From assembly GCA_012842395.1 (NCBI GenBank), contig DUSX01000009.1, forward strand, positions 186,001 to 250,000: a stretch of 64,000 nucleotides of DNA, in the 5' to 3' direction. Below the pieces are notes generated by a model. It did not search any database, had not been told where the DNA came from, and worked only from the letters and a program-made list of their open reading frames with translations. Below, in pieces: positions 32,975 through 38,722 of this stretch (the stretch's first letter is position 1; every line of letters begins with the position of its first letter). The translations under genes and the position numbers were made by a program. This DNA comes from Bacillota bacterium. Lineage in GTDB: Bacteria; Bacillota; SHA-98; UBA4971.

Positions 32975-34504
32975 TCAGGTCGCGGGCGTGTCTTCCCGCG
33001 CCGCACCCCCCGCGCCCAGGCTGACTAATGCGTCAAGGAATCCCGGGTATGAGACGCGTGCCGATTCCCAGCCCTCCACGACCGTAGTGCCGCTTGCCAA
33101 GAGCCCCGCAACCGCGAGCGCCATTGCCATTCGGTGGTCGCCGCGAGCCGAGACGCGCGCCCCACGAAGGCGCGAAGGGTGGATGTGGAGCGAGTCCTCG
33201 TCCTCGGTGATGTGAGCGCCCATTTTCGAGAGCTCTCCGATCACGGCGGCAACCCTGTCCGTTTCCTTGACCCTGAGCTCTGCGATGCCGCTGATGGAAG
33301 ACGGGGAGCTGGCAACGCATGCCAGGACGGCGAAGATCGGGATTTCATCGATCATACTTGGGACCGCGGAGTGTGGAACGTGTGCTCCCACGAGGCGGCC
33401 GCTATGCTCGACCCGGATGTGCGCGACGGGCTCAGGCCCGCCAAGGTCCAGCGGCTCGAGGGTCACCGACGCGCCCATCTCGGCTAGAACCCGGATGAAC
33501 CCGAGGCGTGTCGGGTTCGCGCAGACACTCATCGCGGTGACGCTCGACCCGGGCAATGCCGCCGCCGCGGCCAAGAGAAATGCCGCGGACGACGGGTCGC
33601 CAGGTACGGCGAGCTCGAACGGATGGGGAGGGTGACCGCCGCAGACGGAGACCTCCCGGGCCCCAGAACCGTGGCCCTGGCCCTGCCCGCGATGACCGCC
33701 TCGGTCCCCGCTGCTGCCGACGGCGCCGCCCGGCCTTTGCCGCGCCCTAACCGGCACGCCTGCGAACTGCAACAGCCGCTCGGTGTGGTCGCGGGACTCT
33801 GCGGGCTCGACCACGGTGGTCTCGCCGTCGGCGTAAAGACCCGCGAGGAGAATGCACGATTTCACCTGGGCGCTCGCGACGGACAAGACATGTTCGAGCG
33901 CACGCAAACCGGCGTCTCCTGCGCCCCTTATGACTAGCGGCGCAAGGCCGCCTCCGGCGCGTCCATCCACCCATGCGCCCATGGCGCGGAGCGGGCGCGC
34001 GATCCTTGCCATGGGCCGCCGCCTGAGGGACTCGTCCCCCGTCACAACGAAGAGGCCGTCCTGGCCCGCAAGGATGCCTGAGAGAAGCCTCATCGTGGTG
34101 CCTGAGTTGCCTGCATCGAGGACGTCGGCGGGCTCCGCTAGACCCCGGAGGCCTCGCCCGGACACGATGAGCGAATCACCCTCGCGGCGCACATCAACAC
34201 CGAGCGACCGTAGGCATCTCAGCGTGGAGGCGCAATCCAGGCCCGAAGGGTAGTTGCGCACCCGCGAGGTGCCTTCGCAAACGGCGGCCAACATGGCGGC
34301 GCGATGGGCGATCGACTTGTCCCCAGGGGGCTCGAAAGCGCCGCGTAAGACAACATCTCCACCCTCGACGCGCAGCTCCCGCGGTGATGGCCCAGTCCCG
34401 ATTTGGCCATCAGGTGAGCGATCGAACCGCCGCGACTCCCCGCTCGCGGCTGGCTCTTCATGCTGCGATCGTGTCGTGTCAGTGCGGTCCAGCTGGATCG
34501 ACAT
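32975..34504 (-). CDS. aroA: EPSP synthase (3-phosphoshikimate 1-carboxyvinyltransferase)
   Basis: A 509-residue enzyme joining PEP to shikimate 3-phosphate. Motifs: PPGDKSIAHRA, DAGNSGTTMRLLSG, VPGDPSSAAFLLAAA, ELRVKETDR and ARGDHRMAMAL. ATG at 34504 follows AAAGGAG by 9 nt. Compared with the usual 430 residues there is an N-terminal tail of about 45 residues and a Gly/Gln/His-rich insertion of about 25 residues before the VPGD motif. It is also the target class of glyphosate, but sensitivity cannot be judged here. Confidence 0.93.
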   Translation of the reverse strand: MSIQLDRTDTTRSQHEEPAASGESRRFDRSPDGQIGTGPSPRELRVEGGDVVLRGAFEPPGDKSIAHRAAMLAAVCEGTSRVRNYPSGLDCASTLRCLRSLGVDVRREGDSLIVSGRGLRGLAEPADVLDAGNSGTTMRLLSGILAGQDGLFVVTGDESLRRRPMARIARPLRAMGAWVDGRAGGGLAPLVIRGAGDAGLRALEHVLSVASAQVKSCILLAGLYADGETTVVEPAESRDHTERLLQFAGVPVRARQRPGGAVGSSGDRGGHRGQGQGHGSGAREVSVCGGHPPHPFELAVPGDPSSAAFLLAAAAALPGSSVTAMSVCANPTRLGFIRVLAEMGASVTLEPLDLGGPEPVAHIRVEHSGRLVGAHVPHSAVPSMIDEIPIFAVLACVASSPSSISGIAELRVKETDRVAAVIGELSKMGAHITEDEDSLHIHPSRLRGARVSARGDHRMAMALAVAGLLASGTTVVEGWESARVSYPGFLDALVSLGAGGAAREDTPAT

Positions 34505-34569
34505 GCCCAATGCTCCTTTCTTGCTTGAGACCTCGCGGTCCGCTCTCGGGAAGCGGCCGTCGCGACTAC

Positions 34570-35553
34570 CTAGATCGCGGGAAAGCGTGTCCTTTCGAGC
34601 CATGCCTGCCGGCTGGCTCTTGCTTCAGCCAGAAAGCGCCTTGCCATGTCGACGCACGATGCGGGCGACGTGTCCGCGCTTGCGGCGACGAGCGCGCGCA
34701 CCTCGTCGAACTTGCGCTGGAAGTCGTCCATTGCGTCGAGGATGCGGGCAGCATTTGCGACGAGCATGCCTGTGCCCATTTCGGGATCACCCGACGCAAG
34801 GCGGGTCGTATCGCGAAAGCCGCTCGCGGCCAGGTCCCAGATGGAGGGCAGGCCTACGGAGCGCTCCTCAACGACTCGAGCCAGGCAGGCCGCGATGATA
34901 AGCGGTAGGTGGCTGGTGGCGGCCACCATCGCGTCGTGGTCAGCGGGGTCCATGATGCTCGGGATGCTTCCAGCCGCCTCGCAGGCTCTCGCGACCACCC
35001 TCACGGCGGCCTCGCTGGTCCATTCAGCGGGAGTGAGCACGTAGAGGCAGCCCCTTACCATGTCAGGCGACGCATGATCCACGCCGCTTGTCTCGCTCCC
35101 AGCCATCGGATGACCACCCACGAACGGAACGACGGGGGCAAGATGCTCGCGTGCGAGCGCAAGCACGTAACATTTCGCGCTGCCAACGTCCGTGACCACA
35201 GGCAGGCTTTGCGCCCGGCGCGCATCCCCATCCTTAAGACAGCGACCGAGCTCGGCGAACACTTGTGGCATCGCGAGAAGCGGCGTCGCCACGAGAACGA
35301 TGTCGGCTTCGCGGGCGCCGCCAAGAGAGTCCGCGGCCCCATCCAGCGCGCCGCACTCGACGGCGCGACGGAGAGAGACGGGGTTGACATCGAACCCGTT
35401 CACTTCGTAGCGCCCCGATGCCCGAAGCGCCATTGCGATGGAGCCGCCTACAAGGCCAACACCTATGACAAACGCCCTGGTCTTTGTGACGCCTGGTCGA
35501 TTCCGCGGGTCGCCCGTGTCATTCGAGGACGCGTCGCCGATCACGTATCCCAT
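34570..35553 (-). CDS. tyrA: Prephenate dehydrogenase
   Basis: A 327-residue NAD-dependent enzyme converting prephenate to 4-hydroxyphenylpyruvate for tyrosine. Motifs: VIGVGLVGGSIAMALR (Rossmann), VATPL, TDVGSAK, GGHPMAGSE and the late segment DLAASGFRDTTRLASG. No ACT domain is visible at the C-terminus. ATG at 35553 is placed close to the first conserved strand; the frame is open about 100 codons further upstream, with a Ser/Gly-rich low-complexity reading that is probably not protein, so 35688 remains possible. Confidence 0.87.
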   Translation of the reverse strand: MGYVIGDASSNDTGDPRNRPGVTKTRAFVIGVGLVGGSIAMALRASGRYEVNGFDVNPVSLRRAVECGALDGAADSLGGAREADIVLVATPLLAMPQVFAELGRCLKDGDARRAQSLPVVTDVGSAKCYVLALAREHLAPVVPFVGGHPMAGSETSGVDHASPDMVRGCLYVLTPAEWTSEAAVRVVARACEAAGSIPSIMDPADHDAMVAATSHLPLIIAACLARVVEERSVGLPSIWDLAASGFRDTTRLASGDPEMGTGMLVANAARILDAMDDFQRKFDEVRALVAASADTSPASCVDMARRFLAEARASRQAWLERTRFPAI

Positions 35554-35794
35554 TGTCTCTCTCGAAGTCGGCGGCTCGCTGCTGTTGTACTCGACCGCGG
35601 CGCACGCGCCCCCGGACGACCCGAGAGACGCCCGCCCGCTCGGCGAGCTGCCGGATTTCGTGATTCCTCGCGCGGCCACTGGCATCATCCCCCGATGTCG
35701 CAAGATTAGGTAGCCCGCTACGATTCCGCGCTTGCCTTCAGAGAGGGGCCATCGTCCAAATGCATTAGCCTTGCCGTTCGGGTTCTCTCGCCAT

Positions 35795-36868
35795 TCAGGG
35801 TTTGCCCGCCGCCCCGCGCCCGGGTGAAGCCTCACATACGGAGGGCAAGGCGATCCGGCGCCCAACGGCTTCAGCCACAGGCTTGAGACTGCGCATCATG
35901 GAAGCGAAAGCGTCTGGCGTAAGTGACTGCGGCCCGTCCGAGAGGGCCGACGCAGGGTCATCGTGTACCTCGACCATGAGCCCGTCGGCTCCGCATGCCA
36001 CGGCAGCCATCGCCATGGGGACGACCATGTCCGCGCGTCCTGTTGCGTGGCTGGGGTCTACTATGACAGGAAGATGGCTCAGCTTTTTCACTACAGCGAC
36101 CGCCGAGAGGTCAAGGGTATTCCTGGTGGACGTCTCGAAAGTACGTATGCCGCGCTCGCACAGGATCACGTTGTTGTTCCCCGCCGATAGAACGTACTCC
36201 GCAGCCATCAGCCACTCGTCGATCGAGGACATCATCCCCCGCTTGAGAACCACGGGCTTCGGCTGGCGTCCGACTTCGTGAAGGAGCACATAGTTGTGCA
36301 TGTTCCTGGAGCCTATCTGGAGGGCGTCCGCGTATGCGCCCACGAGCTCAACATCCTGAGGCGACACGACCTCGGTGACCACGGGCAAGCCCGTCTGCTC
36401 CCGCGCCTTTGCGAGGATGCGGAGCCCGGGCTCGCCAAGCCCTTGGAAGGAATATGGCGACGTGCGCGGCTTGAACGCTCCGCCGCGGAGGACGGTCGCT
36501 CCCGCGTTGGCCACGAGGCGCGCGATGCGCATCATCGATTCCTCGCTTTCGACGGCGCACGGGCCGGCGATCACAGGAACCTCGTTAGTCTCGCCGCCGA
36601 AGAGCACGCCCCCGACCGAAACAGCGCTTCTCGTCTGCATGAATTCCCTGCTCGCGAGCTTGAACGGTTGCAGGATCCGCACCACTCTCTCCACCCCCGG
36701 CAGAAACGCGACTGTATCTGGGTCGAGGCGGCGCACGTCGCCTATGAGCCCAACTATCGTGCGCTCCTCACCTCGGGAGATATGGACTTGGAGACCCGCG
36801 TTTTGTGCCATTCGCACGACGCCCTGGATCTCATCTTCCGTTGCTTTCTGTCTCATAACGACTACCAT
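35795..36868 (-). CDS. aroF: DAHP synthase (3-deoxy-7-phosphoheptulonate synthase)
   Basis: A 357-residue first enzyme of the pathway, condensing PEP and erythrose 4-phosphate. The N-terminal 75 residues form a ferredoxin-like regulatory domain as in the Thermotoga-type enzyme, ending [21 protein letters not shown]. The barrel carries [29 protein letters not shown] and VDPSHATGR, with metal-site Cys, His and Glu in place. ATG at 36868 follows AGGGGGAG. The regulatory domain suggests feedback control by an aromatic amino acid or a downstream intermediate. Confidence 0.93.
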
Positions 36869-37040: not shown

Positions 37041-37586
37041 TCAGGTGTCCCGTGGCACGGTACTTAAGTCGGGCCGGAGAGCAGCGGCCTCGCCCAGGTA
37101 AACGTGGGTTGGGCGTGAACGCGTCACCCCCACTGCACCGGAGACGAGGGAATTTCTGTGACGGCGACGCCTGCGCCCATCGACGAGCCTGCGCGCAAGG
37201 GGCATGGGACAGCGGCCGCCACAGCGCGGGCACGACTGCGCGAGAGGTGTGCGAAGCGGCCCCTCTCTCTTCGAGCCGCCCGACGCACGAGCCCGGCACA
37301 GCAAAAGCACCCTTATGCACGCCCGAAGCGCAGCCTTCACCGGGATCTCCACCGCGCACATCATCGGGACCGAGCTCCATCCCAGGGCCCTCGCGGCTGC
37401 AGCGGGAAATGCAGCATCGAGGTCCGGGGTGACGGTGAAGAATGCGAACACGACGTTCTCGAGCTCGAGGTGGTTTCGGGCGACGATGGCGTCGAGGAGC
37501 TCGGTCGTGGCCTGAAACACGCCGTCCCTGCTGTTTGCGACGGGGGCGACGGCCCCTCGGATTGCGAAGATGTCGGAATCCAACAC
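37041..37586 (-). CDS. aroH: AroH-type chorismate mutase with internal insertion
   Basis: A monofunctional trimeric-type chorismate mutase converting chorismate to prephenate. Conserved features: AIRGAVAPVANSRDGVFQAT, FTVTPDLDAAFPAAAAR-LGW-VPMMCA-EI, CIRVL, and the late HVYLGEAAALRPDL. B. subtilis AroH has 127 residues; this one has 181, the excess being an Arg/Ser/Cys-rich segment of about 45 residues between CIRVLLLC and HVYLGEA, near the subunit interface and active site. GTG at 37586 follows GGAGGGATGTC. It is the first gene after the leader and terminator. Confidence 0.8.
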   Translation of the reverse strand: MLDSDIFAIRGAVAPVANSRDGVFQATTELLDAIVARNHLELENVVFAFFTVTPDLDAAFPAAAARALGWSSVPMMCAVEIPVKAALRACIRVLLLCRARASGGSKREGPLRTPLAQSCPRCGGRCPMPLARRLVDGRRRRRHRNSLVSGAVGVTRSRPTHVYLGEAAALRPDLSTVPRDT

Positions 37587-37778
37587 GACATCCCTCCTGT
37601 TGGAGGTTTGAAGCGCGGGCAAGAACGTGAATATACGAGTGTGCGAGCGTGGCACAAGACGCGAACGGAGGCTTGGACGGAGGCAGGATTCGAATCGGAA
37701 AAGGCGTGGAGCCACGGAGGTGCGGGCTCCCGAGTGCGGAGATCACGATCCCGAATCAACCCGCCGAGCGGGTGATAC

Positions 37779-37807
37779 AAAAAGGGCCACCCGTGTGGGG
37801 GTAGCCC
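37779..37807 (-). terminator. Intrinsic terminator in the aro leader
   Basis: Minus strand: GGGCTACCC, 6-nt loop, GGGTGGCCC, then TTTTT. It lies downstream of the aro promoter and about 190 nt upstream of aroH, with no gene ending nearby, so it is an attenuator-type element rather than a gene-end terminator. Confidence 0.8.
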
Positions 37808-37916
37808 TCGCATACATCCGGCCCTATCAAGTCGAGGCCGACCTTACGCGCAGACTCCGGAGCGAGCCGGCCTTGATGGCCGTCCTGGCTCCCGATGCTG
37901 TCCTACGTGCGATGAT

Positions 37917-37940
37917 CTCCCCTACCGTACTACCGTCCTG
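37917..37940 (-). promoter_or_regulatory. Regularly spaced NAG triplets in the aro leader (candidate HutP-like site)
   Basis: The leader RNA reads CAG-N5-UAG-N5-UAG-N2-GAG. B. subtilis HutP binds NAG triplets spaced by four nucleotides. The spacing here is five, so the match is suggestive, not exact. The cluster lies about 110 nt upstream of the leader terminator. Confidence 0.4.
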
Positions 37941-38077
37941 CCGAAGCATATGTACTTGTTCGTGACACGTCTTGTGCCGCAAGCCTCACCAAACAGGCGC
38001 CACGTGCTGCCGCTTTCTCAGGCGTTCCGCCGATCCCACCGTCCTGCCCGCGCCTGCCCGACGGCTTGTTAAAAGGA

Positions 38078-38106
38078 AGTATAGCACCACTCTGCCGCCT
38101 GTGCAA
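38078..38106 (-). promoter_or_regulatory. Sigma-A-type promoter of the aro operon leader
   Basis: Minus strand TTGCAC (38106-38101), 17-bp spacer, TATACT (38083-38078). It starts just after the hutP-like stop codon at 38120. Transcription would begin near 38070, giving about 290 nt of leader to the terminator and about 480 nt to aroH. Confidence 0.75.
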
Positions 38107-38119
38107 GCCCTTTCCTGTT

Positions 38120-38587
38120 TTAGCCCGCATCAGCGGCTGGCACGGCTCTGTGCGCCACCGCGAGCCCAACGTCGTCGAGGTGGAGGAGGCCGATCTCAAG
38201 GAAGACCGCCACTGACAAGTGCTCACCACACCGGGCTACACCGACCTTGCCTCCGACGTTGAAGCCGGCTGCCCTCGGCATGAGTTGGGCGAGCGCTTCA
38301 CGCGCCGCGCCTGTCACGGCTCCCTCGTGCGGATGCGACGATTGTATGACGCCCTCGCGTTTCGCCGCGACGAGGACGTTTTCGACGGTGCGTGCGATGG
38401 ATTGAATGAAGGGCCCGCCAATGTCCACGGCTGCTGCCCTTATCCCTGCGTCCAGGAAGGCGCGTTTCATGTCGCGTTCCTGATCACGCGACGTTGACAT
38501 CGCGATCTGCACCGCTGCCCTCGCCGCTGCGGCGCTCGGGCGGGCCTTCTCGTGCTCGTTCCCGTGATAAGAATCCGATCCCTGCAT
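38120..38587 (-). CDS. HutP-family RNA-binding regulator
   Basis: A 155-residue protein similar along its length to HutP, the metal- and histidine-dependent antiterminator of the B. subtilis hut operon: GVIQSSHPHEGAV aligns with the HutP GVIQS region, and GVARCGE...SVAVFLEIG and GLAVAH align with the later strands. Two HutP His ligands for the metal (in its SHALYH segment) appear replaced by Ala, while the C-terminal His aligned to HutP INHI is kept. The bound ligand may therefore differ. ATG at 38587 follows GGAAGG; length fits HutP (about 150). It lies immediately upstream of the aro leader on the same strand, so aromatic synthesis is the likely target. Confidence 0.75.
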   Translation of the reverse strand: MQGSDSYHGNEHEKARPSAAAARAAVQIAMSTSRDQERDMKRAFLDAGIRAAAVDIGGPFIQSIARTVENVLVAAKREGVIQSSHPHEGAVTGAAREALAQLMPRAAGFNVGGKVGVARCGEHLSVAVFLEIGLLHLDDVGLAVAHRAVPAADAG

Positions 38588-38693
38588 CCGCAGGCACCAC
38601 CTTCCAAGCCGAAAACGCGGCGTGACAGACGGAACGCGGCCGCAGGCCCGCCCGTCCGAAAACGCCTCGGCGCGTGCGCGACCGTCTATGGAC

Positions 38694-38722
38694 ATTCTAC
38701 ATCGATCACCTTACGCAGTCAA
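38694..38722 (-). promoter_or_regulatory. Sigma-A-type promoter of the hutP-like gene
   Basis: Minus strand TTGACT (38722-38717), 17-bp spacer, TAGAAT (38699-38694). It is positioned about 100 nt upstream of the hutP-like start codon. Confidence 0.75.

Follow-up and report, generated by a model that had tools for sequence, protein, structure and literature searches.

Why should a gene of the HutP family, known for the histidine-breakdown switch of Bacillus, stand directly ahead of an operon for aromatic amino acid synthesis, and which way would its product turn that operon? The preliminary description of the window (i.e., the whole 64,000-nt stretch of DNA analysed here) had proposed a hutP gene with its own promoter, a second promoter right after it, a leader of about 290 nt, and an intrinsic terminator away from any gene end and followed by aroH. 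We recovered each of these elements on the minus strand (Table 1), with P1 and P2 as the sole promoter-like sites in 3.4 kb of both strands (mean of 0.8 in shuffled sequences). The ATG chosen as the hutP start lies downstream of P1 and has a purine-rich stretch ahead of it, while aroH was identified by PF07736 (E=1.4e-34) and by TIGR01796 (above cut-off), with a Shine-Dalgarno sequence ahead of its GTG.

Table 1. Features of the hutP–aro locus (positions in the window).
Feature	Position	Strand	Basis or remark
Promoter-like site P1 of hutP (TTGACT-17-TAGAAT)	38694–38722	−	Promoter scan
Aro-type HutP-family gene (hutP), ATG 38590, 156 aa	38120–38590	−	PF09021
Second promoter P2 (TTGCAC ... TGC-TATACT, extended -10)	38078–38106	−	Promoter scan; kept in congeners
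Leader RNA of the aroH-aroF-tyrA-aroA operon, 291 nt	37779–38070	−	Transcript start inferred from P2
First NAG cluster, degenerate (CAG, CAG, then UGG)	38036–38056	−	
NAG site II (CAG-GACGG-UAG-UACGG-UAG), proposed binding site of the HutP-family protein	37922–37940	−	
Antiterminator 5' strand, proposed: GGUAG (37926-37922) and UCGCA (37912-37908)	37908–37926	−	
Antiterminator 3' strand, proposed: UGCGA (37812-37808) and CUACC (37804-37800)	37800–37812	−	Overlaps terminator 5' arm
Intrinsic terminator, GGGCUACCC-CCACAC-GGGUGGCCC-UUUUU	37779–37807	−	Stem-loop 37807-37784 and T-tail; congeners keep terminator
aroH, monofunctional chorismate mutase, GTG start 37586	37041–37586	−	PF07736, TIGR01796
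aroF, DAHP synthase with ferredoxin-like domain	35795–36868	−	
tyrA, prephenate dehydrogenase, start uncertain	34570–35865	−	
aroA, EPSP synthase	32975–34603	−	

The protein has the HutP domain and a replaced histidine–metal site

The hutP product matched PF09021 with 138.7 bits (cut-off 25; E=1.7e-40). Its AlphaFold2 model (pLDDT 89.6), when compared with the PDB using Foldseek, had ten hits at E<=0.001, every one of them HutP (TM 0.56-0.70 by query); this fold comparison found a match where phmmer with the source protein and a profile search against the PDB had returned no relative. The protein domain is thus that of HutP, and the protein falls outside the "histidine antiterminator" equivalog (no family was listed for it in NCBIfam, where PRK03065 is the HutP equivalog).

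We then considered the positions H73, H77 and H138, which we take to be the L-histidine/metal ligands of HutP. These histidines are invariant in canonical-like HutP paralogues of the same phylum. In aro-type HutP, unlike in B. subtilis HutP, they are replaced by Gly (45/46 sequences), Gly (45/46) and Glu or Asp (45/46; this third position was placed by eye, outside the hhalign range). Since all three histidines of the site are replaced, the ligand of aro-type HutP is, judging from sequence, probably not histidine, and we favour phenylalanine or tyrosine.

The source genome also carries a second HutP paralogue, a CBS-CBS-HutP fusion (L037:5483-6253, i.e., G000:C2 about 190480-191250; also L041), whose gene sits between ispDF-like and murA-like genes; such HutP domains recur in the family and class. 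Canonical-like paralogues with all three histidines (L049:6721-7116, L051:6356-6748 and L071:4277-4669) adjoin, respectively, an apparent nifH-type cluster, an apparent ABC transporter of the sugar type accompanied by a CoA transferase, and a gene resembling ornithine cyclodeaminase, and no recognised hut genes were seen alongside them when these loci were read by eye.

A triple-NAG site is conserved in the genus and recurs across the phylum

HutP depends on L-histidine together with a divalent metal, and its RNA target comprises two clusters, each of three NAG triplets (PMC7430163). Within the source leader we found a putative counterpart, NAG site II, with its triplets (CAG 37940-37938, UAG 37932-37930 and UAG 37924-37922) in a strict 8-nt period and with a 22-nt core, GGACGGTAGTACGGTAGGGGAG, that occurs once in the 3.1-Mb source genome. 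The period differs from that of B. subtilis HutP, which is 7 nt. The first NAG cluster of the source leader is degenerate, and congeners have a full triple-NAG in the same place, at the transcript start.

The gene order hutP ... P2-leader-terminator-aroH-aroF-tyrA-aroA was kept in all five congeners, as were a TATACT-type promoter, a NAG site and a terminator in the hutP–aroH gap, which insertions have enlarged to 0.9-2.3 kb. Given that this enlarged gap can hold genes on the opposite strand, P2-leader-aroH is probably a transcription unit of its own. The opposite-strand genes, resembling MNT nucleotidyltransferase and HEPN (DUF86) genes, separate hutP from the aroH promoter in G003 and G004 (L034, L035). 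The leaders of the six genomes differ in both length and sequence, with GCAGGACGGTAGTACGGTAGGGGAGA unchanged in five of them, while the G002 leader has one substitution within the NAG array and an altered 3' flank; flanking leader sequence thus diverges among congeners while NAG-N5-NAG-N5-NAG stays. The expectation of the preliminary description that relatives would keep both the terminator and the NAG triplets was therefore borne out. Just 5' of NAG site II (38000-37937) we also noted a helix, CCUG/CAGG in the source, that would cover the first NAG; the helix at the same place in congeners is CCUGCU/AGCAGG or UGCUCG/CGAGCA and appears to covary.

In most relatives across the phylum aroH comes directly after hutP, with aroF, tyrA and aroA further on. 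The hutP–aroH linkage was found in 60 of 80 named loci, and aro-type hutP is linked to aroH or aroF, not to hut genes. Triple NAG sites (consensus GGNAGGAYGGNAGGAYGGNAG) were found ahead of aroF in 19 of 42 loci, against 0.5 expected in shuffled sequence, and ahead of hutP in 15 of 79, against 1.0 expected, with none ahead of tyrA or aroA in 26 phylum loci; the terminator mostly lies within the next 13-40 nt. Named carriers include Moorella thermoacetica (L101), Desulforamulus aquiferis (L082), Acididesulfobacillus acetoxydans (L104) and Desulfosporosinus sp. HMP52 (L113).

Site placement points to feedback control

To relate the sites to the sign of control, we compared their position with that of terminators and start codons. 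In leaders of the terminator class, the NAG site overlapped the best pairing partner of the terminator 5' arm in 44 of 46 cases and lay outside and upstream of the terminator stem, with a gap of at least 1 nt, in all 46. Pairs from the same leader scored better than swapped pairs (P=0.006), an effect that is significant but modest because both partners are similar everywhere. G002 has changes on both sides (GGUAG, CCUUC, CGCG versus CGCG, GAGGG, UUACC), with pairing retained by eye. A second class of sites was associated with ribosome binding, having a start codon within about 30 nt (49/135 sites). A second NAG cluster upstream was present in 33% of the sites outside this RBS class, compared with 2% of shuffles.

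Folding gave a more qualified picture. At equilibrium the full leader always favoured the terminator, whether the NAG site was blocked or free, meaning that the switch, if real, would be kinetic; minimum-energy folding by itself predicted no switch. Before the 3' arm is made, blocking the site in the source leader cut motif–arm pairing from 4.9 to 0.2 expected pairs, while in G002 blocking the NAG site produced no pairing shift in the pre-3'-arm ensemble.

Given that the sites lie on the antiterminator partner or on the RBS, a bound protein would favour termination or block initiation, and either outcome fits feedback control of supply genes. We thus consider it likely (at a probability of roughly 0.7) that the product of the hutP-like gene binds RNA and regulates aromatic supply, acting by feedback attenuation and translational repression at NAG sites. 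Direct RNA binding by the HutP-family protein, its ligand and the sign of control are inferred here, the sign from site placement together with the logic of the targets. In the mechanism we propose, a plentiful aromatic end product would load the HutP-family protein, which would then bind NAG-N5-NAG-N5-NAG, often with a second cluster upstream, and hide the partner of the terminator 5' arm, so that the terminator forms and aroH-aroF-tyrA-aroA is switched off. At low levels of the amino acid, the site would be free, the antiterminator (GGUAG/CUACC plus UCGCA/UGCGA in the source genus) could compete with the terminator, and polymerase would read through. In other genomes the site lies over the Shine-Dalgarno sequence or the start codon, and binding would block translation.

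The preliminary description had proposed that a HutP-family protein controls the aromatic operon through leader NAG triplets, as a different use of the fold, and that it lets polymerase pass the terminator. The first part is supported, with a conserved, phylum-wide site that co-occurs with HutP (see below), and the finding is larger than first noted; the direction of read-through was probably wrong, as each site either precedes the terminator and covers the partner of its 5' arm, or coincides with the RBS or start. Antitermination proper, in which the protein would bind the leader triplets and prevent the terminator on an aromatic-pathway signal, as at hut, can draw on the HutP precedent (PMC7430163), on the same fold and on the joint conservation of leader, NAG site and terminator. 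We nonetheless regard it as unlikely: in all 46 leaders the site is outside and upstream of the terminator stem, and it falls on the antiterminator partner, about a third of sites overlap the RBS or start, where binding would hardly activate, and the targets are supply genes.

NAG sites co-occur with aro-type HutP and mostly precede known or putative aromatic supply genes

We searched 250 genomes of the phylum for the pattern AGNAYGGNAGNAYGGNAG (26-bit; zero mismatches) and sought aro-type HutP in the same genomes. Sites were present in 76 of 147 genomes with HutP and in 12 of 103 without it (odds ratio 8, P=2e-11), while the reversed pattern had no significant association with HutP in these genomes. 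As the motif is nearly symmetrical when reversed, many reversed matches are the same NAG sites, making the reversed pattern a poor control for motif count; dinucleotide shuffles, gene presence and downstream genes were used as controls in its place. Half of the HutP-positive genomes had no strict site, which is probably due to the strictness of the pattern.

In all, 103 of 128 distinct sites (about 80%) precede a small set of families. These were aroF (28 sites), an SSF symporter (26), a TrpX-type ABC binding protein (10), paaK (7), an LctP-like permease (6), iorA (5), an AMP-binding ligase (5), aroH, tyrA and hutP (3 each), aroE and DctP (2 each), and aroB, aroK and a hisC-like gene (1 each); at least three further unassigned sites are aroH leaders of the source genus. 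As the target families were chosen from these same sites, we compared them with control sites, and 17 of 25 reversed-pattern sites matched none of the target families (on inspection, several of the other 8 are NAG sites of degenerate form ahead of hutP or aroF). Taken together, the families are coherent in that they cover all routes to aromatic amino acids, i.e., de novo synthesis, uptake and the aryl-acid route. In S. suis, TrpX serves in tryptophan/tyrosine uptake (PMC9382623), and the aryl-acid route via indolepyruvate oxidoreductase has been described for a methanogen (PMC4162585). The SSF, LctP, DctP and AMP ligase families are called aromatic by association only.

Another candidate reader of such sites is TRAP (MtrB), with HutP as a bystander. 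TRAP is a (G/U)AG-binding tryptophan attenuator whose array consists of eleven triplets with 2-3-nt spacers. It was found in 131 of the 250 genomes, including most of the HutP-positive ones; trpX-type transporters are among the targets, and G065 and G135 carry aroF sites with TRAP and without HutP. The stratified counts led us to reject TRAP as the reader, which we judge very improbable: with HutP held fixed TRAP had no effect on the sites (P=0.38 and 0.75), whereas HutP had an effect in both TRAP classes (P=3e-4 and 9e-8). The source genus has the site, yet PF02081 was not found in G000, G001, G002, G003 or G005, and three NAG triplets at an 8-nt period are unlike a TRAP array. None of the sites belonged to a trp biosynthesis operon, suggesting a division in which phenylalanine/tyrosine would fall to the HutP-type regulator and tryptophan to TRAP. 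G065 (99% complete) has its RBS-overlapping aroF site at L244 (G065:C1:1228987) and no HutP match; in G019 (L161), of the same genus, HutP lies at a contig end.

It is similarly improbable that the leader acts as a riboswitch or T-box without any protein, with hutP linked to it for some other reason. In favour of such a reading, the leader is long and structured with an alternative helix, and a helix before site II seems to keep pairing across congeners. Against it, there was no Rfam match at the gathering score and none believable at a relaxed E-value (with no T-box match in the source locus or 12 related loci), only the short NAG array and terminator, and no structured aptamer, are shared across genera, and the site co-occurs with HutP.

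A proposed HutP-type regulon compared with known systems

Feedback control by an aro-type HutP would resemble the hut system of B. subtilis in its PF09021 domain and fold, in its putative NAG-triplet target, often in two clusters, and in a gene that adjoins the regulated operon with its terminator-bearing leader. It would differ from that system in having aromatic rather than histidine targets and, with sites on the antiterminator or RBS, in a probably opposite sign. Its predicted action, in which a protein bound at NAG repeats would break up an antiterminator or mask an RBS, is that of TRAP, as is the predicted feedback control of aromatic genes and of a trpX-type transporter; unlike TRAP, it belongs to an unrelated protein family, uses three triplets rather than eleven, and probably senses phenylalanine or tyrosine while coexisting with TRAP in the same genomes. 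With T-box control of aromatic genes in Firmicutes it would share the choice between terminator and antiterminator in the leader; trpX of S. suis is under such control (PMC9382623).

So far HutP has been known from a single operon and a single ligand, while aro-type HutP appears to govern a large regulon across many genera, including cultivated ones (e.g., Moorella and Desulfosporosinus). The RNA code of this regulon would be short and recognisable, the ligand pocket is altered, and the logic is probably reversed. A family known for a histidine-breakdown switch thus appears to have been turned, in many anaerobic Bacillota, into an RNA-binding protein that restrains both the synthesis and the import of aromatic amino acids. 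We give slightly better than even odds to the wider proposal that a HutP-fold protein which lost the histidine–metal site acts after transcription initiation as a global feedback regulator of aromatic supply across much of this group, working by attenuation and RBS blocking at NAG-N5-NAG-N5-NAG sites on genes of biosynthesis, aryl-acid use (iorA, paaK) and uptake, and sharing cells with TRAP by sensing phenylalanine/tyrosine rather than tryptophan. Such a protein would add a regulator of aromatic amino acids to TRAP and T-boxes, and would be a natural experiment in which an RNA-binding protein switched both effector and sign. A literature search of open-access papers returned no report of HutP in aromatic control, which is weak evidence of absence.

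Such a regulon would also give substrate hints for several uncharacterised transporters. We also noted individual arrangements of interest: at L188:1584-2927 a NAG site and a terminator lie ahead of a beta-ribofuranosylaminobenzene-phosphate-synthase-like (GHMP kinase) gene, and at L084:8464-9693 aro-type hutP immediately precedes the gene for a tyrosyl-tRNA synthetase, which hints at tyrosine. In Anaerophilus nitritogenes (L151:8399-8640) several NAG clusters come after hutP, together with a terminator-like stretch and a trpX-type ABC operon, and one more NAG cluster covers the trpX start codon.
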